A DNA stretch of 64,000 nucleotides from Mucilaginibacter sp. (GCA_028287895.1 JAQBOV010000029.1:119685-183684), one strand, 5' to 3'; shown: positions 37,098 through 61,604, counted from the stretch's first letter. The notes: generated by a model from the sequence alone, not told the origin. Program-made: numbers and translations.

Positions 37098-38351
37098 CTA
37101 CTGAAATCTGCCCGGCGAAAACACATCGATATTCATCGTTGGTTTGCCGCCATTCAATACATCGTTGATGAGCCGGCCCGTGGCCGGTCCCAGGCTCAGG
37201 CCGATCATCGCATGACCTGTAGCGATGGCCAGGTTATTATATTTACCTGACAAGCCGATATAAGGCATACCATCAGGTGAGACCGGGCGGAAGCCAAACC
37301 AGATATCTTTTTTCTGCGGCACTTCGGGTTTAAAGTTGGGAAAGTATTTAGGCACTGATTCAACGATACCTTTCACACGGTTCATATTAACCTGGCCGTT
37401 TATCTTTCCTATCTCCATGGTACCGCCATAGCGTATGCTGCCGTTCATCGGGGTGACGGCGACCCTCGCTTCGCACAATATCGATGGGATGGTCATCCGT
37501 TTGGCATCATCCTGCCCCACCATGAATGAATAACCCTTACCCGGCATCAGCGGAACACGCAAACCAGCCAGCCGGGCGATTGCAGGCGACCAGGCGCCAG
37601 CGGCTACTACATACGCATCACCCTTAAATTCTTTATCATCACTGCTTACCGAGGTAATTTTATTGGTGTCATGCGCTATTTTAACGATCTCTGTATTGCG
37701 GTGAATGGTTACCCCTTCAGCTGCTGCCAGGTATTTAACCAGGCCAGCCATCAGGCTGTTAGGATGCAAATGCGCATCACAATGATAGTGTACAGCTCCC
37801 AGAATATCCATCTCGACGCCGGGCTGCAGTTTACGGCATTCCCCAGGACTCAGGTATTGTGCATCAAGACCCAGGTTGGTTGCTTTTTCGGCAAGGTGCT
37901 GTTCCTCTTGTTCCGCTTTCGGACTTTTAAAAAGCATCAGGATGCCTTTATCTTGCAACCCAAAATCGATACCGGAATCTTTTTCAAATTCCCTATACAG
38001 CTTTTTGCTTAAAATGGAAATATCCCGCAAGGCCCCTGCCGAATGCTCCACATGCTTTTTAGTGGCACTTTTCAGAAATTTGAGCCCCCAGCCAACGAGC
38101 CCCGGATCAAGCGAAGGCTTTACATAAAAAGGGCTTCTACTGTTAAACATCCAGCGGATGCCCTGCTCGACCATGCCGGGTGCGGCCAGGGGCACAAAAT
38201 GGCTTGGCGTGATCATACCCGCATTGCCGTATGAACAATTATCCGACAGGTCGCCCCGGTCAATTATCTCCACTTCCCAACCCGATTTATGCAGATAGTA
38301 TGCCGAGAACAGCCCGATTATACCTCCGCCAATTATAATTGTTTTACTCAT
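37098..38351 (-). CDS. FAD-dependent D-amino-acid/D-hydroxyproline dehydrogenase
   Basis: SKTIIIGGGIIGLFSAYYLHKSGWEVEIID Rossmann motif; next to hydroxyproline epimerase; start adjusted to MSKTI at 38351. Confidence 0.88.
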   Translation of the reverse strand: MSKTIIIGGGIIGLFSAYYLHKSGWEVEIIDRGDLSDNCSYGNAGMITPSHFVPLAAPGMVEQGIRWMFNSRSPFYVKPSLDPGLVGWGLKFLKSATKKHVEHSAGALRDISILSKKLYREFEKDSGIDFGLQDKGILMLFKSPKAEQEEQHLAEKATNLGLDAQYLSPGECRKLQPGVEMDILGAVHYHCDAHLHPNSLMAGLVKYLAAAEGVTIHRNTEIVKIAHDTNKITSVSSDDKEFKGDAYVVAAGAWSPAIARLAGLRVPLMPGKGYSFMVGQDDAKRMTIPSILCEARVAVTPMNGSIRYGGTMEIGKINGQVNMNRVKGIVESVPKYFPNFKPEVPQKKDIWFGFRPVSPDGMPYIGLSGKYNNLAIATGHAMIGLSLGPATGRLINDVLNGGKPTMNIDVFSPGRFQ

Positions 38352-38356
38352 AAACC

Positions 38357-38464
38357 AAGCCCTCTGCAAATCTCCCCCCGGTGGGGGAGACTTGGTATTT
38401 TTTTAATTTATTATACATTTATCATTCATTTAAAGCCCGCCCTACCACGGGTTGAGGGGGCTTA
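38357..38464 (-). repeat. Dispersed palindromic spacer repeat copy A
   Basis: aagccctc...gagggggctta; inner stem tctccccc/gggggaga (38371-38378/38383-38390); core catttatcattc. Confidence 0.75.
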
Positions 38465-39463
38465 TATCACCTGGAACCCATAGGCGTAAGGATCTTCATC
38501 ATCAATTTTTATGGTATTATAGCCATACACCCGTGCCCAGCCTTCAATGCTGGGTATGATTGCCGGTGTATCACCTATTTTCACCTCCTGTTCCACCCTG
38601 CCGGTAAACTGGCTGCCTATGATACTTTCATGTATGAATAGATCGCCTTTTTTTAGCTTCCCTTTAGCGTGCCATTGGGCCATCCGTGCAGATGTGCCCG
38701 TTCCGCAGGGAGAACGGTCAATCGCTTTATCACCATAAAAAACAGCGTTGCGCGCCGTTGCTTCAGCAGACAGTGTTTTCCCGGTCCAAAGAATATGCGT
38801 ACAGGTATTGATAGTTGGATTTTCAGGATGAACGAAAGTATACTGGTCATTAATTCTGCTCCTTATCACCCTGCTCCATGATATCAACTGATCAGCATTA
38901 TAATTTTCCAGTCCCTTAAAGTTGGGCTGGGGATCAACAATGGCATAAAAGTTCCCCCCGTAGCTCACATCAAAGGTCAATATCCCCAGGTCGGGACATT
39001 CTACATCGAGGTTTTCGGCAGCAAGATAAGCGGGTACGTTAGTCAGTTTAACTGATTTTACTTTACTTCCCTCCTGCTGGTATTCTACTAATACCAAGCC
39101 TGCAGGTGCTTCCATCCGCACGATGCCCGGTGTTTTTGGGATGATCAGCCCGTGCTCAATTGCTATAGTGATGGTGCCGATGGTGCCATGCCCGCACATC
39201 GGCAAACAGCCGCTGGTCTCGATAAACAAAACAGCCACATCATTTGCCGGATCATGAGCGGGATACAAAATACTGCCCGACATCATATCGTGGCCTCTGG
39301 GTTCAAACATCAGGCCCTTGCGTATCCAGTCATATTCTTTTAAAAAATGCTGGCGCTTTTCGCTCATGTTACCGCCTGTCAAATTGGGGCCTCCGCCTGC
39401 TACTAACCTTACCGGGTTGCCGCAGGTATGGGCATCTATACAAAAAAAGGTTTTACTCGCCAT
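38462..39463 (-). CDS. 4-hydroxyproline epimerase (proline racemase superfamily)
   Basis: Both catalytic Cys contexts present: LPMCGHGTIGT and DRSPCGTGTSARMA. Confidence 0.92.
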   Translation of the reverse strand: MASKTFFCIDAHTCGNPVRLVAGGGPNLTGGNMSEKRQHFLKEYDWIRKGLMFEPRGHDMMSGSILYPAHDPANDVAVLFIETSGCLPMCGHGTIGTITIAIEHGLIIPKTPGIVRMEAPAGLVLVEYQQEGSKVKSVKLTNVPAYLAAENLDVECPDLGILTFDVSYGGNFYAIVDPQPNFKGLENYNADQLISWSRVIRSRINDQYTFVHPENPTINTCTHILWTGKTLSAEATARNAVFYGDKAIDRSPCGTGTSARMAQWHAKGKLKKGDLFIHESIIGSQFTGRVEQEVKIGDTPAIIPSIEGWARVYGYNTIKIDDEDPYAYGFQVI

Positions 39464-39586
39464 TATTTTTAGTTTTAAGTTTTGAGCCAGGCGCAGTTCA
39501 TACTCAAAATCCGCGACTCAATTAGTTTCGAGTATTGAGTTTTAATTGAAGCATACATTCTTACTCAGAACTCGGCGTACCCATCA

Positions 39587-41167
39587 CTACGCTTTACTCC
39601 ATTTATTGTTCACCAAACGCCATATCTCCAGCGGGTTGTCATCTTTTAATTCATCCGGCAATAGGTCATTGCTCCAGTTCTGCCAGCTCACAGGACGCAC
39701 AAAGCGTTTGATGGCTCCTGTACCTACCGAGGTAAAGCGGCTATCCGATGTTGCCGGGAAAGGACCGCCGTGCTGCATGGCCTGAACCACCTCGACACCG
39801 GTGGGCACATTATTTAAGATCACACGTCCCGCTATACCGGTAAGGCTTTGGATAAGCGGTTTATATTTCACCAGGTCCGATTCATCTGCTACGATGCTTG
39901 CTGTTAACTGTCCATGCAAAGCACTAACAATCTGCGGCAATTCAAGCTCATAATCAGCGGTCACCAGTAAGGAATATGGGCCGAATACCTCTTGTTTGAG
40001 TTTGGCATTGACCAGGAACGAGGATGCGCTCACCTCTGCTACCAATGGCAATGCCTGACTGGATTTATCTTTATTCAGATTACCCGATCTGCCGATAACC
40101 GACACCCCCTGCTCCTGCAGCATTTCTTCGGACACTTGTGAATAATTTTTGCAGATACCCGGAGTAAGCATAGTTGATGAACCAAGCTTTTCAATGGCTT
40201 CATTCAGGGCTTTCTTGAATTTCTCTAATCCGGCCGACTTCAGGGCGATCAATAAACCCGGATTGGTACAAAATTGCCCCCCGCCCAAAGTGATGGAAGC
40301 CGCATATTGCTCCGCAATTTGCGCATAGCGGTTTTCCAGTGCCTCAGGCAGTAATATGACCGGGTTGATACTGCCCATTTCGGCAAATACCGGGATAGGC
40401 TCATCACGCTGCTGTGCCATTTTCAGCAGCGACATTCCGCCTTTATAGGAACCTGTAAAAGTGACGATCTTTGTTTTAGGATGTTTTACCAGGGCCTCTG
40501 CTACCGTATAACCATCATCATACAGGATAGAAAATACCCCTTCAGGAAGATCGTATTTTTTGGCAGCTTTTTTAATGGCCTCTGCAGCCAGCGCGCTTGT
40601 GCCCGGATGTGCCGGATGTGCCTTTACCACAACCGGACAACCGGCCGCTAGTGCCGAAGCAGTATCGCCGCCGGCAACAGAAAATGCCAGCGGGAAATTA
40701 CTTGCCCCGAATACCACTACCGGCCCTACAGGAATATGCATTTTACGGATATCCGCTCGTGCGGCAGGCTGACGATCAGGTAAAGCGTTATCGATCACCG
40801 CTTCCACCCATGAGCCTTCTTCTACCAAATCTGCAAACATATTTAGCTGAGCTGCTGTCCGTCCGCGCTCGCCTTGTAAACGAGCCAGTGGTAAACCACT
40901 CTCGCTCATGGCGCGTTCAATTAACTCATCACCTATGGCTAATATTTCTTGGGCAATGCTGCGCAGGAAGGCTGCCTTTGTTTTTTTATCGGTATAACGA
41001 TAAATGGCAGCTGCTTTTTCAGCAAGGTTTAATGCAGCGTCTACCTCGTTCAATCCTGCTGCCGAGAATTCACCTTCAAGTTCAGCACCCGAACAGGGGT
41101 CGATCGCCTTAAAGGCTTTGCCACCGGCGGCCATATACTGATATCCTATTAAATTTCCTGTTTCCAT
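39587..41167 (-). CDS. NADP-type aldehyde dehydrogenase, alpha-ketoglutarate semialdehyde dehydrogenase-like
   Basis: VFGASNFPLAFSVAGGDTASALAAGCPVVVKAHPAHPGTS; GGGQFCTNPGL catalytic Cys. Confidence 0.9.
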   Translation of the reverse strand: METGNLIGYQYMAAGGKAFKAIDPCSGAELEGEFSAAGLNEVDAALNLAEKAAAIYRYTDKKTKAAFLRSIAQEILAIGDELIERAMSESGLPLARLQGERGRTAAQLNMFADLVEEGSWVEAVIDNALPDRQPAARADIRKMHIPVGPVVVFGASNFPLAFSVAGGDTASALAAGCPVVVKAHPAHPGTSALAAEAIKKAAKKYDLPEGVFSILYDDGYTVAEALVKHPKTKIVTFTGSYKGGMSLLKMAQQRDEPIPVFAEMGSINPVILLPEALENRYAQIAEQYAASITLGGGQFCTNPGLLIALKSAGLEKFKKALNEAIEKLGSSTMLTPGICKNYSQVSEEMLQEQGVSVIGRSGNLNKDKSSQALPLVAEVSASSFLVNAKLKQEVFGPYSLLVTADYELELPQIVSALHGQLTASIVADESDLVKYKPLIQSLTGIAGRVILNNVPTGVEVVQAMQHGGPFPATSDSRFTSVGTGAIKRFVRPVSWQNWSNDLLPDELKDDNPLEIWRLVNNKWSKA

Positions 41168-41218
41168 AATCTCTGGGCTGAATCCTTGCCTCTTGTTAGT
41201 GTGCTGTGTAGTTCTTCA

Positions 41219-41260
41219 CCACGAAGGTCATTAAGTTTTTTCACAAAGAGCATTAAGTTA
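41219..41260. repeat. Decayed ACCACRRAGGNCAYTAAG..TTTTCACRAAG repeat, second copy
   Basis: accacgaaggtcattaagttttttcacaaagagc vs accacagagggcactaagattttcacgaagaac at ~9337. Confidence 0.5.
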
Positions 41261-41265
41261 TCAAT

Positions 41266-42207
41266 TCAATATGCGGTTTCCAATTGACTCAGCCTGCCCC
41301 AGCTGCCTTCAGGCAATGCCGGACGTGCTGTTAGTGCATCATTGATGATCTTTAATACCCGCTCACGCTCGGCACCCTGTATGGTTAAACGCGGCGCACG
41401 TACATGCTCTGTGCCGATGCCTGTTGCCACTTCGGCCAGTTTGATATACTGCACCAGTTTTGGATGGATATCCAGCTCCAGCACCGGCAAAAACCAGCGA
41501 TAGATAGTTAAAGCCTCACTGATCCTGTTTGCTTTTACCAGGCGATAAATAGCAACCGTTTCTTTAGGAAAGGCATCCACTAAACCGGCTACCCAACCAT
41601 CGGCACCCATTACCAGGCTTTCCATAGCCAGCGGATCAACACCGGTCATGATCTTGAATCTGCCACCAAAGCGGTTGATCATACGGGTAACGTTGGATAC
41701 ATCCCTGGTTGATTCTTTTACGGCTTGAATATTATCATACTTTGCCAGTTGTTCAAACATGTCCAGCGTCACCTCGATCTTATAATCAACCGGGTTATTG
41801 TAGATCATGATCGGCAGCGGCGTACTTTCAGCCACTGCAGTTAAAAAGGCCACCGTTTCCTGATCGTCGGCTTTATAACGCATCGGCGGCAATAGCATTA
41901 AACCGCTTGCGCCATAATCCAAAGCCTTTTTCGCGCAGGCTACGGCGGCTTTGGTGGCTTGCTCGGCTATGTTGAGCAATACAGGAACTTTCCCGTCTAC
42001 AAGCCGGGCGGTATGTTTCAGCAAAGCAAACTTTTCCTCATCGCTCAGCACACTGGCTTCGCCTAATGATCCGCCTAAAATCAAGCCATCAACACCGGCT
42101 TCCAACTGCGCGCTGATATTATAGTCAAACGCCCTGAAATCAAGCTCATCATTATCAGTAAACTTGGTTGTAACTGCGGGGAAAACCCCTTTCCATGTAA
42201 ATTTCAT
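41266..42207 (-). CDS. DapA/DHDPS-family lyase, probable 1-pyrroline-4-hydroxy-2-carboxylate deaminase
   Basis: GLILGGSLGEASVLSDEEK, IMIYNNPVDYK, QAVKESTRDVSN Schiff-base Lys; context. Confidence 0.87.
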   Translation of the reverse strand: MKFTWKGVFPAVTTKFTDNDELDFRAFDYNISAQLEAGVDGLILGGSLGEASVLSDEEKFALLKHTARLVDGKVPVLLNIAEQATKAAVACAKKALDYGASGLMLLPPMRYKADDQETVAFLTAVAESTPLPIMIYNNPVDYKIEVTLDMFEQLAKYDNIQAVKESTRDVSNVTRMINRFGGRFKIMTGVDPLAMESLVMGADGWVAGLVDAFPKETVAIYRLVKANRISEALTIYRWFLPVLELDIHPKLVQYIKLAEVATGIGTEHVRAPRLTIQGAERERVLKIINDALTARPALPEGSWGRLSQLETAY

Positions 42208-42329
42208 AAGCCCTTAGCCCCCTGTAAATCTCCCCACGGCAGGGGAGACTTTTATTTTTATTTTGAATGATAAATGAATTACTCTTTTTATAAAGCCCTG
42301 CCTGGCGGGGCAGGGTCCGGCGGGGCTTA
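42208..42329 (-). repeat. Dispersed palindromic spacer repeat copy B
   Basis: agccccctgtaaatctccccacggcaggggaga...gaatgataaatg...ccctgcctggcggggcaggg...cggggctta. Confidence 0.78.
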
Positions 42330-44546
42330 CTTCGACACTCTTACCAACACTACCCCATGCGGTGGTACTTTCGTTACAAATTCCCCTGCTGCGGTGATGA
42401 GGTATTTTTGCTGCCATACATCACGCACTTTGGTATATCCGCCCAAACCGGCATCCGCTTTATTCAGTTTAATGAGCTGATACTTATCCGAAGTATTGAA
42501 TATCCCTACCGCCTTGCTGCCATCTTCCAATTCCTTTGTCCAAACCTGGTAATCGTCCTTCTTAGCAGTCTGCCTCGCTTCCCTGCCCAAAGCATCCTGG
42601 TCGATTGCCAGCACTTCATCGTTGGTCAGCAGGCTTAGCGTGAAGGGATCCAGGTGGCCCATATCACAGCCGATCAATAACGGCGATGACAGTAAACTCC
42701 ACAAACTGATGTGGGTATATTGTTCGTCGGGTGTCAGCCGGGTATTGTGCTGACTATCGCCCCAGCCGACTTTGCCAACCACCAGCATGTCAGGATCATT
42801 GAAATGACCTGGTTTTGCACCTTCTGCTGTTTTGTCCTGACTGAAGCCTATAGTCGACATGCTTTTCCAGGTATCTTCAATATCCCCCGTAGTGCGCCAG
42901 CTATTGCCGCCAACCTGGCCGCCCCAATTCCAAACATCCCCCATCCCATACTGGCAAAAGCTGAACAGGATATCCCTGTGAACTTTATCCAATGAGGCAC
43001 GCATCAGCTGGTAGGGCTTTTTCATGTCGTCCAGTGTTGGCCTTGAGGAGGTCACCTCCGAGTAAGAGCACCAATCGTATTTCAGGTAATCTATACCCCA
43101 GTCACCATAGGTCTTGGCGTCCTGGCCCTCGTGCTGCCAGCTTCCCAAGTAACCGCCGCAAGTTTTTGGACCGGGAGATGAGTAAATCCCCATCCTTAAG
43201 CCCAGGCTGTGCACATAATCTGTCAGACCCTTCATATCCGGGAATTTTGCGTTTGTCAGAATCTCGCCATTTGCATTGCGATTTGCCGCCTCCCAGCCGT
43301 CGTCAATGTTAATGTACATCCAGCCATGTGCGCTTAACTTATCTGCCATGGCATTGGCCGATGTGCGTACTTTTTGATCATTCACCGTTAAACCCCAGGC
43401 GTTCCAGCTGTTCCAGCCCAAAGCAGGTGTCAGACCAATCAGCTCGCCGATTTTAATGGTAAATTTTTTGGTACTGCTGCCCAGTTTATTGCTCACCGTG
43501 AATGCTACGGCGTAGTCACCTTTAGTATCCGCCACCCCGGAAATAATGCCCGTTGCAGCATCCAAAGTTAACCCCGATGGCAGGCCATCAGCCTTATACA
43601 CTAGCGGCTTTTGCCCTGTGGCAGGTATTCTGTACAGGAACGGATTACCCGGACGTTCCCCAAAAACATCCGGCCCATTAATCCGCGGTTTTGCCTTTAC
43701 GTAAGGCGTCAAAATATAGGGTGTACCCTCAGTTTTGCTGATCTGCTTACCCGAATGTTCATCGGTAAAAGTGTAAGTGATCCGGTATGATTTCTTGTCG
43801 AGCCTGGCTATGGTAAACGTATAAGTAAAAGGGCGGTGCGCCGTAAAGTTCGCCGGGTTTGTTTTCTGGTAAACGATGGTATCCGTTTCAGGGTCTGTCA
43901 CTTTAAAACTCAGCCTGCCCGCATAATTGTAGTTCCCGCCGGTGGCTTTCAGTTTGATGGCTTTGCCCAGGCTTTTTTCGCCGTAATAAAAATCACCATC
44001 GGTGCTGATCGTCACATTGTCCATCACGTCCGTCATTTTGATGTCGAACTTATCGCCATAAACGCCGCCATTGCCTCCGGTATCGAATAGGCGTACAGCG
44101 ATCACATTTTCTTCGTCCCAATGCAATGCCGGATCATTCACGGATACCGAAAAAGAGCCCGGCCCGTACAGACCTGACTTGATATCTCCTGTTTTCCAAT
44201 TTTTGTATACCAGTTTGCCGTTTAGATACACTTCGCCGCCATCATCCAAATAGCCGAGGTCGAAATGAAGGCTGTCTTTCAAAAATGCTTTTTCTTTCAG
44301 TGATGACGGGATAAGCTGATGCACCCGGTACCAGCCAAAACCGTCTGTTTGGGGGTATCCCTGCTGTTCCCAGGTTTTGCTGACGTCGGCCGTTTTCCAA
44401 CCGCTATCATTATACGGTGGCAATGCCCATGCGCTTGAGTCGCCTATGCGGAATTTCCAGCCATGTGCCAGGTTAATTTCCTGTGCCGACACCGTTAAAA
44501 AGGGCGCAGCCAGGCAGATGATCAGCATGTAGATTTTTGTTCTCAT
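42327..44546 (-). CDS. Alpha-galactosidase GH27 with N-terminal jelly-roll and Ig-like domain, exported
   Basis: LTPALGWNSWNAWG, MYINIDDGWE, GIDYLKYDWCSY, GHFNDPDMLVVG; signal peptide. Confidence 0.92.
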   Translation of the reverse strand: MRTKIYMLIICLAAPFLTVSAQEINLAHGWKFRIGDSSAWALPPYNDSGWKTADVSKTWEQQGYPQTDGFGWYRVHQLIPSSLKEKAFLKDSLHFDLGYLDDGGEVYLNGKLVYKNWKTGDIKSGLYGPGSFSVSVNDPALHWDEENVIAVRLFDTGGNGGVYGDKFDIKMTDVMDNVTISTDGDFYYGEKSLGKAIKLKATGGNYNYAGRLSFKVTDPETDTIVYQKTNPANFTAHRPFTYTFTIARLDKKSYRITYTFTDEHSGKQISKTEGTPYILTPYVKAKPRINGPDVFGERPGNPFLYRIPATGQKPLVYKADGLPSGLTLDAATGIISGVADTKGDYAVAFTVSNKLGSSTKKFTIKIGELIGLTPALGWNSWNAWGLTVNDQKVRTSANAMADKLSAHGWMYINIDDGWEAANRNANGEILTNAKFPDMKGLTDYVHSLGLRMGIYSSPGPKTCGGYLGSWQHEGQDAKTYGDWGIDYLKYDWCSYSEVTSSRPTLDDMKKPYQLMRASLDKVHRDILFSFCQYGMGDVWNWGGQVGGNSWRTTGDIEDTWKSMSTIGFSQDKTAEGAKPGHFNDPDMLVVGKVGWGDSQHNTRLTPDEQYTHISLWSLLSSPLLIGCDMGHLDPFTLSLLTNDEVLAIDQDALGREARQTAKKDDYQVWTKELEDGSKAVGIFNTSDKYQLIKLNKADAGLGGYTKVRDVWQQKYLITAAGEFVTKVPPHGVVLVRVSK

Positions 44547-44576
44547 TTTGGTTTATGTTGGTTTATATTGCTTCGC

Positions 44577-46616
44577 CTATTTCGTCAAAAGATCAATATA
44601 CTTAATCTGCTCGGGAAACCAAACCATCATTTCACCCTTGCCACGATTAGCCCACGCATAGTACGGTATAGCGGTTAAAGTGGCATTTTGTGTGCGCACA
44701 TTTTGCCCGTTTGTATCTACATTGATGCTTTTTACATCAGCTTTTAATACGGTAACACCATTTAACAGGTCCGGTTTATATTCAGGCTTAAATACCGCAT
44801 CTTTTGGTACGATGAGGTTGCTCGCCAGTCCGTTATTGTCCTTCCATTCGGCGCAATACATTATCGGGCCCCGCTGCAGGGCAACCTTGCCGCTATCATC
44901 GGATATATGGGCATTAGCGATCACCCGGCGCACATTCATCGGCAGGATAACTTCCACTTTATCGTTCTTTTTCCATTTCCGGCTCAATACGGCATAACCT
45001 TTCTCTGCATGATACTTAGCCGGCATGCCGTTCACTTTTATTTCTATCGCCTGCGCCGAGGTTCCTTCGTAGCGGTACAGGTCTGATGGCATAGCCTGGT
45101 TCTGCGCCCAGCCGGGGATGCGGATCTTTAAATCCATATTCATTTTTCCAGCCGGGTTAATGATCAAAGCCAAAGCGCCGTCCCAGGGATAATTATTTTG
45201 CTGAGTAATCTTTATTGCTTTATTATTCACCGTAAGATTGCCTGTGCCGCTGATAAACAAGTTCACATACAAGGCATTGCCTTTCTGGGCATAGACGTAA
45301 CCGGGGATTGAGGGGACCAATCTGACCACATTGGTCGGGCAGCAGGAACAAGTGAACCATCCCGAACGTTCCGCCTCCATATCCGCCTGGGTAAAGCTGT
45401 TCTTTATCTGCATGGCATTGGTATAGAAGAAGGATTTTCCGTCCAGGCCCAGCCCCGATAGCAAACCATTATACAGCGTCTTTTCCATCATATCGACGTA
45501 CTTGCTCTCGCCGTGCAATAAAAACATGCGCTGGTTCCAGAACACGCTGCCTATGGCAGCACAGGTTTCGTTATAAGCAGTGGCATTGGGTAACTCGTAA
45601 TTTTCGCCGAAACGTTCGCCGTCGCCAACAGCGCCAATGCTGCCCTGCACATACATTTTTTTGCTCACCATGTTATTCCAGATGCGGTCAATAGCGGTTA
45701 AATATGCGGTGTCGCCCGTCAGCGCGGCTACATCAGCCATACCGGCATACAGATACATGGCCCTGACGGCATGACCTTCGGCTTCATCCTGTTGGATAAC
45801 TGGTTTATCATCCTGGAAATACTTGCCGTTTTCCCATTCGTTTTTGCTTTTGGCATCATATTTTTTGATACCCCGCTGGTCTATAAAAAACCTGGCCAGA
45901 TTAAGGTAATCTGTCTTCCCGCTAATGCGGTACAACCTGACCAAACCCATCTCTACAATTTCGTGACCGGGTGCCACATGCAGCTTACCTGGACCGAAAG
46001 TGCCTGCAAGCAGGTCGGCATTTTTCAGGGCGATATTGAGCAGGTTGCGTTTGCCGGTAGCCATATAATGGGCAGCGGCAGCCTCGTATAAGTGTCCGCA
46101 GTTATACAGTTCATGACTCATTTTTTGCTCATTCACCCATCTTTGGGGACCTGCCCAAGACTGCGGATGTACCGGGTCGATGCTGCGTGCGGTGTACAGG
46201 TACCCGTCCGGTTCCTGCGCCTTGCCAACGATGATGATTAAAGAATCCAGATAAGCCGACAATTCAGGGTCGGGATGTTCTGCAAGTGAATACGATGCCC
46301 CCTCGATGGTTTTATATATATCAGTATCATCAAAAGGATATACGGTGCAGAATTTGCCTTTATGCTCGGCAGCCATCTCGAAATTTTTTACCCGTCCGGT
46401 ACTCTGGCAGCGGGCAAATGACGCCGGTATGGTAACGCTACGGTTTGTTTCGATGCGCGATGTCCAGAAATGGTCGCTTAGTTTTACGCTGGTAAAAGGC
46501 ACCGGCTGTATAGGATAATCCTTGTTCTGCGCAAACGCCGAAAGACTGCAGCAGGCTACGATAAGGGCGCTTATTTTCTTCATCATGGAAAAACCTTTAT
46601 CCAAAGATACTGGCAA
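44577..46616 (-). CDS. GH127-family beta-L-arabinofuranosidase, exported
   Basis: VKLSDHFWTSRIETNR; ETCAAIGSVFWNQRMFLLHGESKYVDMMEKTLYNGLLSGLGLDGKSFFYTN; WFTCSCCPTNVVRLVPSIPGYVYA (Zn/Cys cluster). Confidence 0.93.
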   Translation of the reverse strand: MPVSLDKGFSMMKKISALIVACCSLSAFAQNKDYPIQPVPFTSVKLSDHFWTSRIETNRSVTIPASFARCQSTGRVKNFEMAAEHKGKFCTVYPFDDTDIYKTIEGASYSLAEHPDPELSAYLDSLIIIVGKAQEPDGYLYTARSIDPVHPQSWAGPQRWVNEQKMSHELYNCGHLYEAAAAHYMATGKRNLLNIALKNADLLAGTFGPGKLHVAPGHEIVEMGLVRLYRISGKTDYLNLARFFIDQRGIKKYDAKSKNEWENGKYFQDDKPVIQQDEAEGHAVRAMYLYAGMADVAALTGDTAYLTAIDRIWNNMVSKKMYVQGSIGAVGDGERFGENYELPNATAYNETCAAIGSVFWNQRMFLLHGESKYVDMMEKTLYNGLLSGLGLDGKSFFYTNAMQIKNSFTQADMEAERSGWFTCSCCPTNVVRLVPSIPGYVYAQKGNALYVNLFISGTGNLTVNNKAIKITQQNNYPWDGALALIINPAGKMNMDLKIRIPGWAQNQAMPSDLYRYEGTSAQAIEIKVNGMPAKYHAEKGYAVLSRKWKKNDKVEVILPMNVRRVIANAHISDDSGKVALQRGPIMYCAEWKDNNGLASNLIVPKDAVFKPEYKPDLLNGVTVLKADVKSINVDTNGQNVRTQNATLTAIPYYAWANRGKGEMMVWFPEQIKYIDLLTK

Positions 46617-46958
46617 TATCTACCAAAACCAGTAAGGTATTTACCCGATTTTAACCGGATTTTAACCCGAGATGGTAACCTTAGCCGATTAAGGTGGCAA
46701 AATAGGGAGACAGGGGGACAAAGCAGTTGCATACTGTGCAGGGCAGATTCACGCCGTATACCCTTGCCTGTGTGCCCATCGGCGCATCGCCGTGACCGGA
46801 CCTTTAGCGTTTGACAAAAGATTAACCGGATTTAACTTTATTTAAGACCATATTTACGGGAATCCTTAAATCCTGTGCCGGAGGCAAAATTTAACATTCC
46901 GTTAATTTTCATTTGGTAAGAAAAATCTTACATTTATTACGAGAAAAAAACCTGAAAA

Positions 46959-47321
46959 ATGAAAAGAAAATTATTCAATCTTATTGCATTAGCTTGCTGC
47001 TTTATTTTTGTAATGGCGGTAACTGCCGATCTGAGCGGTAAATGGGCCGGCATTATAAAGACACCTGATGGTAACGACCTGCCTGTTGCTTATAATTTTA
47101 AGCTCGATGGCGAAAAACTGACCGGCACCTGTGAAGGGTCTTTCGGGCAGATGACTATTGACAGCGGAAAAGTAACCGGCGATGCTTTTAAGTTCCAGGT
47201 TACCGTGGACGGTAATGCTTATGCGCATACCGGCAGGTTTTACGCTGATTCATGCGGACTGGATATTGATTTCGGAGGCCGGAAAATACATACTACGCTT
47301 AAACGCGTTGCCAGCAAATAA
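46959..47321 (+). CDS. Small exported beta-rich protein, tandem paralogue 1
   Basis: Signal peptide; DLSGKWAGIIKTPDGNDLPVAYNFK. Confidence 0.8.
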   Translation: MKRKLFNLIALACCFIFVMAVTADLSGKWAGIIKTPDGNDLPVAYNFKLDGEKLTGTCEGSFGQMTIDSGKVTGDAFKFQVTVDGNAYAHTGRFYADSCGLDIDFGGRKIHTTLKRVASK

Positions 47322-47462: not shown

Positions 47463-47831
47463 ATGAAAAGAAAATTTTTTATCACCACCGCACTGCTTTG
47501 CTGCTTTGCCGCTGCATTTGCATTTTTTGCCGATCTGAACGGCAAATGGACCGGCGTTTTAACGGCACCGGACGGAAATGATTATCCGCTTAACTACACG
47601 TTTAAAACAGACCATGATCAGCTGACAGGTACAGGGCAATCACCCCAGGGAGCAGTTGAGCTGACCGAGGGAACCGTAAAGGGAGACAGCCTTTCATTTG
47701 CCATTGATGTTGGCGGGGTGAAAATATTCAATGCAGGGAAATATTACAGCGCCGGTGATTCCATCAGCTTAACGGTTGATTACCAGGGAATCAAGATGCA
47801 CAGTACGCTTAAACGCGCTGCTGATCAATAA
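47463..47831 (+). CDS. Small exported beta-rich protein, tandem paralogue 2
   Basis: DLNGKWTGVLTAPDGNDYPLNYTFK; same ending (STLKRAADQ vs TTLKRVASK). Confidence 0.8.
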   Translation: MKRKFFITTALLCCFAAAFAFFADLNGKWTGVLTAPDGNDYPLNYTFKTDHDQLTGTGQSPQGAVELTEGTVKGDSLSFAIDVGGVKIFNAGKYYSAGDSISLTVDYQGIKMHSTLKRAADQ

Positions 47832-49219: not shown

Positions 49220-49445
49220 AAATTTAATGGTAACAGGCAGGTTATTATAAATTGAGAAGGCTTAAAAGTACTAAAGAAAAAGTAATATGCAACTAAAATA
49301 AACGATGCAACGCCCCGCGGGGGCGATAGGGTCTGAACATCAAAACAGTTTTCAATTATTATTCGCGGTAAAAGCAACCGCAGATCATTTTTTGCCCGTA
49401 ACAGTTGTAAAATAAACAAATGCGCGTAACTTTGCTTTGCTACTT

Positions 49446-49817
49446 ATGAAGTACAGACTGACTGCCATATTGCTCATCATTTCAATTATCTGCAGCAGCT
49501 TTTCACGCTTTTTTATTTATGCCGGCTTTGAGATGAACCAGAGCTATATCGCCTCCAAGCTTTGCGAAAACCGCAACAAACCCTGGCTGCACTGTAACGG
49601 TAAGTGTTACCTGATGAAAAAGGTCAGGCAGGCCGAAGAAAAACAAAACGCTTCGGAACGCGAAACCCAAAAGAACCTGGTACAGGAAGCTTATTGCCAC
49701 GCCGATAACCAGGTGAAATTTTATACCCATTTGATCAGGGTGATCGCCATTGCCCTTAACCGCATTGAACTGCCCGAACGTTACAGCGCTATCTTCCGCC
49801 CTCCGCAGCTAGGATAA
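49446..49817 (+). CDS. Small membrane-anchored protein with CxxxxxxxxxCNGKCYLMKK motif
   Basis: N-terminal TM; LCENRNKPWLHCNGKCYLMKKVRQAEEKQ; immediately upstream of a TonB receptor. Confidence 0.7.
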   Translation: MKYRLTAILLIISIICSSFSRFFIYAGFEMNQSYIASKLCENRNKPWLHCNGKCYLMKKVRQAEEKQNASERETQKNLVQEAYCHADNQVKFYTHLIRVIAIALNRIELPERYSAIFRPPQLG

Positions 49818-49842
49818 TCCGCTATTAATTCTCTTTAAACAA

Positions 49843-49956
49843 ATTGTCATTTCGATTTCGCCAAAAATGCGAGAAATCTTGTATAACAGGCATAGTTCGC
49901 TTGCTTGTTTTCAAAATCGCTCACTTGGCCTGCCTGCCGCAGGCAGGAATGACAAT
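49843..49956. repeat. Dispersed intergenic repeat with terminal inverted ends
   Basis: attgtcatt (49843-49851) / aatgacaat (49948-49956); internal cctgcctg-ccg-caggcagg hairpin. Confidence 0.75.
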
Positions 49957-50057
49957 CACGCATTGATTTGTCCAAAGAGAAAGTATTACCTATAAATCCA
50001 TCTGCTAACAAAATTCAAACCTGTTTTACAGGGCTTTTGAACACCCTAACTTATAAC

Positions 50058-52334
50058 ATGAACATTTTTAAAAAAGTGGCGCTACCGGTCATTGTCCTTG
50101 TCTTTGCCGCTCAGCTGGCAAACGCACAATACCTTTTTAAGGGCAAGGTAATTGACAGCGCTACCCGTCAACCTATTGAGTATGCAACCGTTACTGCTGG
50201 CGGTAAATCGATCAGCGCAAATAAAGATGGCGACTTCCGGATCATATTGTCCGATAGTGCTTCGGTATTAACCATATCCTGTATCGGCTGCAAAACGAAG
50301 ATGATAACTACCGATAAATCAGGCAAAAAGATCATTATTGCCCTCGCACGCGGGAAATTAGATTTGAAAGAGGTGGTCATATCACCCTCGCTGAACAGCA
50401 ACTCGTTCCATACCATCAGTGCTTTGGATCTGAGTTTGCGGCCGGTAAATTCATCACAGGATCTGATGCGGCTGGTGCCCGGATTATTTATAGCCCAGCA
50501 CATGGGCGGCGGCAAAGCCGAACAGATATTCATCCGTGGCTTTGATGCCGATCATGGTACCGATCTGAATGTTTCGGTCGATGGCATGCCGGTTAACATG
50601 GTGTCACATATTCACGGGCAGGGATATGCCGATCTGCATTTTTTAATTCCCGAAACCGTATCAACCTATGATTTTGGAAAAGGGCCTTATTATAGCGACC
50701 ATGGCGATTTCACCACCGCCGGCTACTTAAGTTATACCACCAAAGATGCCCTGGATAAAAGCATGATCAGTTTGGAAGGCGGCCAGTTTAATACTTTCCG
50801 TGTCATGGGGATGATCGATCTGCTGAGCAGCAAAGCCAAACAAAACGGTGAGAATGCTTACATAGCCGGCGAGTATAATTATACGGATGGCCCCTTTAAA
50901 CTGCCCGAACATTATAAGCGCAGCAACTTATTCGGTAAATACACCAAGCAATTAGGAGCTGATAATAAATTATCACTCAGTGCATCCACCTTCACTACCA
51001 GCTGGATACCCTCTGGCGAGATCCCTGAACGTGCCGTAGCGGCGGGTACTACGGCTATTGATGATAATGGCAAGCCGGTTAAAATCCCGGCTGCTCCGGT
51101 TACCATTAGTCGTTTTGGAACTATTGATAGCGCACAAGGTGGCAATAGCAGCCGGATAAATGCCATCGCCAGGCTTAGCACCGACCTGAAAAATAACTGG
51201 ACGATGGAAAACCAGTTATATTACACACATTATAAATTCCTGCTGCATGTCAATTCCACCTTTTTTGCAGCCGACAGTATAAACGGCGATGAAAGGCAGC
51301 AGGGCGAAGCGAGGGACCTGTTTGGTTATAACGGGAAATTAAGCAAGATCAGTTACTTTGGAAAAAACGTACTTACTTCTGCCATAGGGTTAAGCAGCCG
51401 TTTTGACCGAAGCTATGGATCTGATTACAGTTTGGTAACGGAACAGTACCAATTCTTAGCTAACGTTACCCATGGCGATATCAGGCAAAATAATACCGCT
51501 GTTTACCTGGATGAAACTTTAGAAAGCGGCAAATGGCTGTTTAATGTAGGTTCGAGGCTGGATTATTTTAACTTTAATTATCACGACAGCACAAAAACCA
51601 GTGTTATTGTCAGCCCGAAAGTAAATATCCAGTATACCGCCAGTGATCAGGCGCAGTTTTATCTGAAAGCAGGCAAGGGCTTTCACTCTAATAATGCCAT
51701 CGCCGTGATCGGCAATAACGGGCTGGAAACCATGCCGGCAGCTTATGGCGCCGACCTGGGGCTGAACTGGAAGCCTGTTGCACACCTTTACATCAACACA
51801 GCTCTTTGGTATTTATATCTTTCACAGGAATTTGTTTATACCGATGACGGAGATATCGTACCCGGCGGGAAGACCAGGCGTGAAGGTATCGATCTTTCTG
51901 CCCGTTATCAACTGGCCAAATGGCTTTTTGCTGATCTGAATGTAAACCTGGCAAGGCCACGAATGGTTGATAGTACAAAAAGCACCGGTTACCTGCCACT
52001 TGCTCCAACGTTCACCAGCACCGGCGGACTCGATTTTAAGCTTGACAACGGGATAAACGGGGGCCTGAGCTACCGTTACATGCATAGCCGCCCGGGTAAT
52101 CAGACCAATACGTTAAGGGCTGACGGATACTATGTAACCGACCTGAAATTGAATTATACCAAAAAACGCTATGAAATAGGTTTAACCATTGAAAATCTGC
52201 TGAACACCAAATGGAACGAGTTTGAAGCGGAAGAAGTGAGCAGGCTAAGAGGTGAAACGGCAGCCATCGACCAGATGAGCTTTACGCCGGGCACACCGCT
52301 TTTTGCAAAGCTGCGGGTGGCCGTGTTTTTTTAA
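50058..52334 (+). CDS. TonB-dependent receptor with carboxypeptidase-regulatory-like domain
   Basis: KGKVIDSATRQPIEYATVTAGG; plug AEQIFIRGFDADHGTDLNVSVDGMPVNMVSHIHGQGYADLHFLIPE; C-terminal barrel ending FF; start adjusted. Confidence 0.93.
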   Translation: MNIFKKVALPVIVLVFAAQLANAQYLFKGKVIDSATRQPIEYATVTAGGKSISANKDGDFRIILSDSASVLTISCIGCKTKMITTDKSGKKIIIALARGKLDLKEVVISPSLNSNSFHTISALDLSLRPVNSSQDLMRLVPGLFIAQHMGGGKAEQIFIRGFDADHGTDLNVSVDGMPVNMVSHIHGQGYADLHFLIPETVSTYDFGKGPYYSDHGDFTTAGYLSYTTKDALDKSMISLEGGQFNTFRVMGMIDLLSSKAKQNGENAYIAGEYNYTDGPFKLPEHYKRSNLFGKYTKQLGADNKLSLSASTFTTSWIPSGEIPERAVAAGTTAIDDNGKPVKIPAAPVTISRFGTIDSAQGGNSSRINAIARLSTDLKNNWTMENQLYYTHYKFLLHVNSTFFAADSINGDERQQGEARDLFGYNGKLSKISYFGKNVLTSAIGLSSRFDRSYGSDYSLVTEQYQFLANVTHGDIRQNNTAVYLDETLESGKWLFNVGSRLDYFNFNYHDSTKTSVIVSPKVNIQYTASDQAQFYLKAGKGFHSNNAIAVIGNNGLETMPAAYGADLGLNWKPVAHLYINTALWYLYLSQEFVYTDDGDIVPGGKTRREGIDLSARYQLAKWLFADLNVNLARPRMVDSTKSTGYLPLAPTFTSTGGLDFKLDNGINGGLSYRYMHSRPGNQTNTLRADGYYVTDLKLNYTKKRYEIGLTIENLLNTKWNEFEAEEVSRLRGETAAIDQMSFTPGTPLFAKLRVAVFF

Positions 52335-60830: not shown

Positions 60831-61604
60831 ATGGAAAAAGGGAAAACAAACATAGATTATAAAAACCCGGTGATCGTCGTTAGAGGTCTTGAAAAAGCCT
60901 TTGATGATTACCGGGTACTGCGCGGAATTGATCTTGATCTTTACCAGGAAGAAAACCTGGTCGTACTGGGCCGTTCAGGATCAGGAAAATCGGTGCTGAT
61001 CAAGATCATCTCGGGCTTGTTGAAAGCGGACAAGGGCGAGGTAATGGTTTTTGGAAATGACATCAGTACGATCACCGATATGGAACTGCAGGAATTAAGA
61101 ATAAGAATCGGGTTCTCTTTCCAAAACAGTGCTTTGTATGATAGCATGACGGTACGCAAAAACCTGGAGTTTCCGCTGGTGCGTAACCGCAAGGGCATTA
61201 CGCGGAAGGAAATAAACACATCTGTTGAAAGTGTGCTGGACGCGGTCGGCCTTTCACAAACGATTAACCAGATGCCTTCCGAACTATCGGGCGGCCAGCG
61301 TAAACGTATAGGAATAGCCCGGACATTGATACTCAAGCCCGAAATCATGTTATATGATGAGCCTACAGCAGGGCTTGATCCCATTACCTGTATCGAGATC
61401 AATGACCTGATCAATGAGGTGCAACAACGGTTCCATACCTCATCGATTATTATTACACATGACCTTACCTGCGCCAAAAGCACCGGCGACCGCATAGCCA
61501 TGCTGCTGGATGGTCAGTTTCAGCGTGTTGGTTCTTTTGACGAAGTATTTAATACCAGTGACGAGCGCGTAAAACCATTTTTTGAATATAACTTTATACA
61601 ATAG
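60831..61604 (+). CDS. MlaF-like ABC ATPase
   Basis: GRSGSGKSVLIK Walker A, LSGGQRKRIGIARTL, LYDEPTAGLDP. Confidence 0.95.
   Translation: MEKGKTNIDYKNPVIVVRGLEKAFDDYRVLRGIDLDLYQEENLVVLGRSGSGKSVLIKIISGLLKADKGEVMVFGNDISTITDMELQELRIRIGFSFQNSALYDSMTVRKNLEFPLVRNRKGITRKEINTSVESVLDAVGLSQTINQMPSELSGGQRKRIGIARTLILKPEIMLYDEPTAGLDPITCIEINDLINEVQQRFHTSSIIITHDLTCAKSTGDRIAMLLDGQFQRVGSFDEVFNTSDERVKPFFEYNFIQ

Follow-up and report, generated by a model that had tools for sequence, protein, structure and literature searches.

Digestion of plant hydroxyproline (Hyp)-rich glycoproteins by soil and root bacteria is poorly known: the known systems take arabinose alone, and the known Hyp pathways serve collagen or free Hyp. 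In a 64,000-nucleotide stretch of a Mucilaginibacter genome (the window), two glycosidase genes stand in a row with four genes of Hyp catabolism, which raises the question of whether the six form one unit, and for which substrate. The source genome comprises 4.46 Mb on 111 contigs and is about 92% complete. A sequence-only reading had proposed that the unit strips arabinose from Hyp and galactose from Ser and then catabolizes the Hyp. That glycosidases and pathway act as one unit is now well supported by gene order, by recurrent linkage of paralogues and by the promoter and operator, while the substrate is something that we still infer.

Genes of the locus

The six ORFs, all on the minus strand, have the coordinates and belong to the families (Pfam/NCBIfam) that had been claimed for them, and the unit is now placed at 37098-46586. 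In order of transcription they encode GH127, GH27, a DapA-family protein, an aldehyde dehydrogenase (ALDH), the epimerase HypE and an FAD-dependent dehydrogenase (DAO). GH127 (44577-46586), an exported candidate beta-L-arabinofuranosidase of group A, has catalytic, middle and C-terminal domains that all exceed their cut-offs (PF07944, at 366 bits, PF20736 and PF20737). Aligned with HypBA1 (3wkw), it is identical at the Zn/catalytic set (E338, C340, C417, C418 and E322), at the substrate residues H142, Y145, H194 and R273, and at H270 and C415. Its best match in the PDB is 6ex6, which we take to be BT3674, reported as acting in arabinogalactan degradation. Assignment as an aceric-acid hydrolase acting on RG-II was rejected, since the NCBIfam match scores 485 bits where the cut-off is 950. 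The GH127 start should be the ATG at 46586 (or 46583) and not a TTG, because the promoter box at 46609-46602 falls within the TTG-started ORF.

The exported GH27 protein (42327-44546) is a candidate alpha-galactosidase with Melibiase_2, Melibiase_C and He_PIG domains, and its N-terminal stretch is similar to the sugar-binding domains of GH2. In alignment to the rice alpha-galactosidase 1uas, the Asp pair (NIDD), the nucleophile (LKYD) and the acid/base (TTGD) are matched, and both the catalytic and the galactose-binding Asp pairs are kept. HypE (38462-39463) is a 4-hydroxyproline 2-epimerase that matches the NCBIfam 4-hydroxyproline epimerase PRK13971 at 603.8 bits (cut-off 376) as well as Pfam Pro_racemase, with both catalytic-Cys motifs intact (MCGHG and SPCGTG). 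The DapA-type protein (41266-42207) belongs to the DHDPS family PF00701 and falls below every NCBIfam equivalog cut-off; ALDH (39587-41167; Aldedh, PF00171) likewise reaches none of them, and DAO (37098-38351, probably starting at the ATG at 38351; PF01266, 233.6 bits) matches the NCBIfam D-amino acid dehydrogenase below cut-off. All three are in the right superfamilies and are conserved together with HypE. Family and pathway context make them candidates for pyrroline-4-hydroxy-2-carboxylate deaminase, alpha-ketoglutaric semialdehyde dehydrogenase and D-hydroxyproline dehydrogenase, respectively.

No GH146 gene was found in the window genome, and neither GH121 nor GH43 stands beside GH127 among the scanned window proteins (the domain scan covered the window except for 13408-36156 and 60831-61604). 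A TonB receptor at 49968-52334 was considered as the importer and rejected, as it is not SusC-like and adjoins a small CNGKC-motif protein. These two genes (49437-52334, the small protein first) are kept near the site in several relatives and look like a metal-uptake pair. Two small exported proteins that belong to a single family are encoded in tandem at 46959-47321 and 47463-47831; in relatives, up to five copies lie upstream of the operon (52 copies in 24 loci).

Linkage and transcription within the genus

HypE was found in 106 of 150 Mucilaginibacter genomes, and flanks of about 10 kb to either side were taken from 105 genomes besides that of the window. At 85 loci, that of the window among them, both flanks are longer than 8.5 kb; GH127 or GH146 lies within about 10 kb of HypE at 66 of these, and neither does at 19. 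Of the 66, 30 have group A GH127, 23 have group B and 32 have GH146, and group A never occurs together with group B or GH146 at one locus. Of 14 closed or nearly closed genomes, 13 have a GH127-family gene no more than 10 kb from HypE, where random placement gives 0.2. The window genome contains a single gene of the proline-racemase family and just two of the GH127 family above cut-off; with so few copies, linkage within ±5 kb would arise by chance with a probability of about 0.4%. The presence of HypE and of GH127 is associated across genomes with an odds ratio of 8.2, uncorrected for phylogeny. The linkage is thus conserved in relatives above chance, as the sequence-only reading would require, with counts that are not independent because related species share arrangements.

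Clade A, which has the arrangement of the window, keeps the order GH127-GH27-DapA-ALDH-HypE-DAO in 23 of 35 loci, and GH27 is absent in nine others. In L083, L096 and similar loci no ALDH separates DapA from HypE; instead, an ALDH about 52-56% identical to that of the window is encoded about 9.6 kb downstream. The genus loci devoid of GH127 and GH146 include a sub-group (L082, L091, L093, L100, L104 and L105); GH92, MFS and LacI genes precede the Hyp operon in L082 and L091, joined by GH2 at the former, an arrangement that suggests another glycoprotein source.

The supposition that glycosidase and Hyp genes are transcribed together agrees with the distribution of promoter sequences. A Bacteroidota-type -7 box (TATCTTTG; 46602-46609, minus strand) precedes GH127 in the window. 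Searched as TAnnTTTG within 150 bp upstream of genes, the box is found at 32 of 34 clade-A GH127 genes (3.4 expected), and at 1/34 DapA, 1/35 ALDH, 1/35 HypE and 0/34 DAO genes of the same clade. At the DapA genes of non-clade-A loci it occurs in 56 of 61 cases (6.9 expected). At 8 of 25 clade-A loci a -7 box also precedes GH27, which may point to a second promoter in some species. Neither a search for the classical TTTG-N-TAnnTTTG promoter nor a sigma-70 promoter scan revealed an excess in the window.

The box lies 58 bp downstream of the start of an operator (46634-46667, minus strand), detected by a weight matrix and genome search and composed of direct repeats with a period of ~11 bp, GGTTAAAATCC GGTTAAAATCG GGTAAATACC. 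Trained on the DapA upstream regions of non-clade-A loci alone, the matrix scores this site at 24.0 bits (99.9% null threshold, 11.5), the top value in the window, the next being 12.1. With the false-positive rate set to 1%, it recovers the operator at 33/35 clade-A GH127, 23/25 SusC, 25/33 GH146, 11/28 DUF885 and 3/5 unlinked group A GH127 genes, and at 0/35 clade-A DapA and 0/104 DAO genes; reverse training gave results that agree. Spacing from operator to box is 57-58 bp at all 54 DapA sites counted and at 19 of 25 GH127 sites. In the window, DapA has neither element upstream; where the Hyp operon stands apart, DapA carries operator and -7 box at equal spacing. Allowing up to two mismatches, the operator pattern has a single match in the window genome, just upstream of GH127, and one match each in G083, G085 and G120, directly 5' of GH127. 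A single operon is therefore predicted from these upstream regions, with GH127 preceded by the one regulated promoter and DapA, ALDH, HypE and DAO having none of their own. The regulator is likely to be the AraC protein of clade-B loci; the window genome encodes an orthologue of it (67% identity; C82:92705-93580) at a distance of about 65 kb.

An inverted-repeat element is present in two copies, one between GH27 and DapA (42217-42248) and one between HypE and DAO (38359-38390), and is rare in other loci of the genus (8 cores in 1.9 Mb). It was considered as an operon boundary and rejected: one copy falls between HypE and DAO, within the canonical Hyp set, and with both copies inside the unit it marks no boundary.

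Relatives, paralogues and probable movement of the Hyp operon

The cluster had been described as having neither a protease nor a SusCD pair. For SusCD this holds at the window locus, beside which adjacent SusC and SusD genes are absent; in relatives, the locus has both a protease and a SusCD pair. The clade-B locus comprises GH127-B, GH146, a divergent SusC-SusD pair, DapA, (ALDH), HypE, DAO, AraC, DUF885, an amino-acid permease, and GH27 or DUF5695; an M24 Xaa-Pro aminopeptidase is frequently present too. Pedobacter loci have additional S9 DPPIV-type, M24 and M1 peptidases. Outside the genus, HypE is accompanied by GH146 or GH127, in differing orders, in Pedobacter, Chitinophaga, Flavihumibacter, Ilyomonas and others; in other families, most Hyp loci have neither. 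The window copy, with neither GH146 nor SusCD, is a reduced form, and smaller arabinosylated peptides may be used.

A DUF5695 protein of about 915 aa is encoded beside the Hyp operon at L121:16788-19568 and in 12 other loci of the genus, with the operator upstream of its gene in four. DUF5695 is a candidate new enzyme of the system, as are the DUF885 peptidases.

On the tree, a deep split divides groups A and B of GH127, and both include linked as well as unlinked members. Clade-A genomes such as G016, G022, G027, G095, G121, G128 and G147 combine group A at the Hyp operon with a group B gene elsewhere; in clade-B genomes it is group B that is linked and group A that stands apart. In four of the latter (G014, G023, G055 and G126), the GH127-A/GH27 pair adjoins relatives of the flanking genes of the window operon (families c7 and c9), with no Hyp genes at that place. 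G045 has a SusCD/GH127-B/GH146/AraC/DUF885/GH27 cluster without Hyp genes (L216), and its Hyp operon lies behind GH127-A (L058). From these layouts, the Hyp operon appears to have moved between two beta-arabinofuranosidase loci. On balance we favor one dedicated Bacteroidota regulon for Hyp-O-arabinosylated plant proteins, in which the operator would control SusCD, GH127/GH146, peptide cleavage and Hyp catabolism; in the lineage of the window, the Hyp operon would have been relocated, have lost its promoter, and now be under that of a different beta-arabinofuranosidase that already belonged to this regulon.

Substrate and known systems

In extensin, Hyp bears as many as four arabinoses, all beta-linked save the outermost, and Ser bears one alpha-galactose (PMC4132260). 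GH127 HypBA1 trims beta-arabinosides and GH146 Bll4HypBA1 takes the last arabinose off Hyp (PMC10850190). The locus is quite probably one operon, with a single regulated promoter at GH127, for plant Hyp-arabinosylated glycoproteins or glycopeptides, extensin-type being likelier than AGP. In the periplasm, GH127 would trim beta-L-arabinofuranose off Hyp-linked chains and GH27 would take off alpha-galactose, probably from Ser. Hyp would be released by peptidases, encoded elsewhere in the window genome and beside the locus in relatives. Four enzymes would then act in the cytosol, with epimerase, dehydrogenase, deaminase and ALDH turning trans-4-hydroxy-L-proline into alpha-ketoglutarate by way of D-Hyp, pyrroline-hydroxycarboxylate and alpha-ketoglutaric semialdehyde. 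The ~11-bp direct-repeat operator, probably read by an AraC-family protein, would join these genes and, in relatives, also SusCD, GH146 and some peptidase genes.

Plant signalling peptides also bear the Hyp-Ara3 motif, and the window genome has periplasmic enzymes with no SusCD at the locus, features that would suit small Hyp-arabinosylated peptides (CLE-type hormones) or microbe-released fragments as the substrates in place of structural extensin. We regard this as unlikely; SusCD and several peptidases in relatives suggest larger substrates, and the present data fit fragments of extensin equally well. Use of AGPs seems decidedly improbable. GH127 would then cut terminal beta-Araf of the side chains and GH27 the alpha-Gal or beta-L-Arap caps, with Hyp coming from the AGP core. 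AGPs are likewise Hyp-rich, beta-L-arabinopyranosidases exist within GH27 (4nx0), and the closest PDB structure to GH127, 6ex6, is presumably an arabinogalactan-PUL enzyme. However, GH27 has the Asp pair of the rice alpha-galactosidase, the recurring set consists of GH127, GH146, GH27 and Pro-type peptidases, and exo-galactanase, endo-galactanase and beta-glucuronidase are absent among the genes identified in GH127/GH146-linked Hyp loci, where part of the ORFs were scanned. Because no galactanase or glucuronidase is among the identified genes, GH127, GH146, GH27, the Pro-type peptidases, the permease and Hyp catabolism fit an extensin-type substrate better than AGPs. That glycosidases and Hyp genes are neighbors by chance or descent only, with unrelated functions, is hardly credible: arrangements are common to related species, so that counts are not independent, and 19 of the 85 loci have no GH127/GH146, but two GH127 paralogues and GH146 are linked in different lineages, DapA is without promoter and operator exactly where it stands behind GH127, and the operator is common to SusC and GH146.

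The hypBA1/hypBA2/hypAA cluster of Bifidobacterium longum encodes GH127, GH121, GH43 and an ABC transporter. The GH127 family is the same, the checked HypBA1 residues are kept and the proposed chemistry on Hyp-linked beta-arabinan is shared; however, that system is described as using arabinose alone, whereas the Mucilaginibacter operon is predicted to catabolize Hyp too, and GH121, GH43 and an ABC importer were not seen in the scanned part of its locus. In Xanthomonas euvesicatoria, XeHypBA1 (GH146)/XeHypBA2/XeHypAA adjoin a prolyl oligopeptidase pseudogene (PMC6085000), likewise placing a beta-arabinofuranosidase by a Pro-type peptidase with Hyp-rich glycoproteins as the target, but Hyp catabolic genes are not described there (PMC6085000). 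Pseudomonas (Lhp) and Sinorhizobium (Hyp) use the four-step route that is predicted here, with the same epimerase and deaminase families; that of Mucilaginibacter differs in being joined to a glycosidase operon and in its single-chain FAD dehydrogenase. The HypR regulon of Streptomyces couples collagenase with Hyp catabolism (PMC6608401), so that a polymer-degrading enzyme and Hyp catabolism are again under one regulator, although animal collagen and a GntR repressor are involved there, as against proposed plant-type arabinosides and an ~11-bp direct-repeat operator in Mucilaginibacter. The loci of relatives resemble SusC/SusD PULs of Bacteroidota in having SusCD, glycosidases, an AraC regulator and a shared operator; they differ in that the payload includes amino-acid catabolism, and the window locus is without SusCD. 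Degradation of Hyp-rich glycoproteins has been proposed for Latescibacteria from scattered genes (PMC4454575). No published joint Hyp/GH127 operon, or its operator, was found in the open-access literature.

A single regulated unit that both takes arabinose and catabolizes Hyp would make extensin turnover by root-associated Bacteroidota directly testable. The operator provides a diagnostic sequence for locating the remaining machinery, and the Hyp operon offers a natural experiment in operon relocation.
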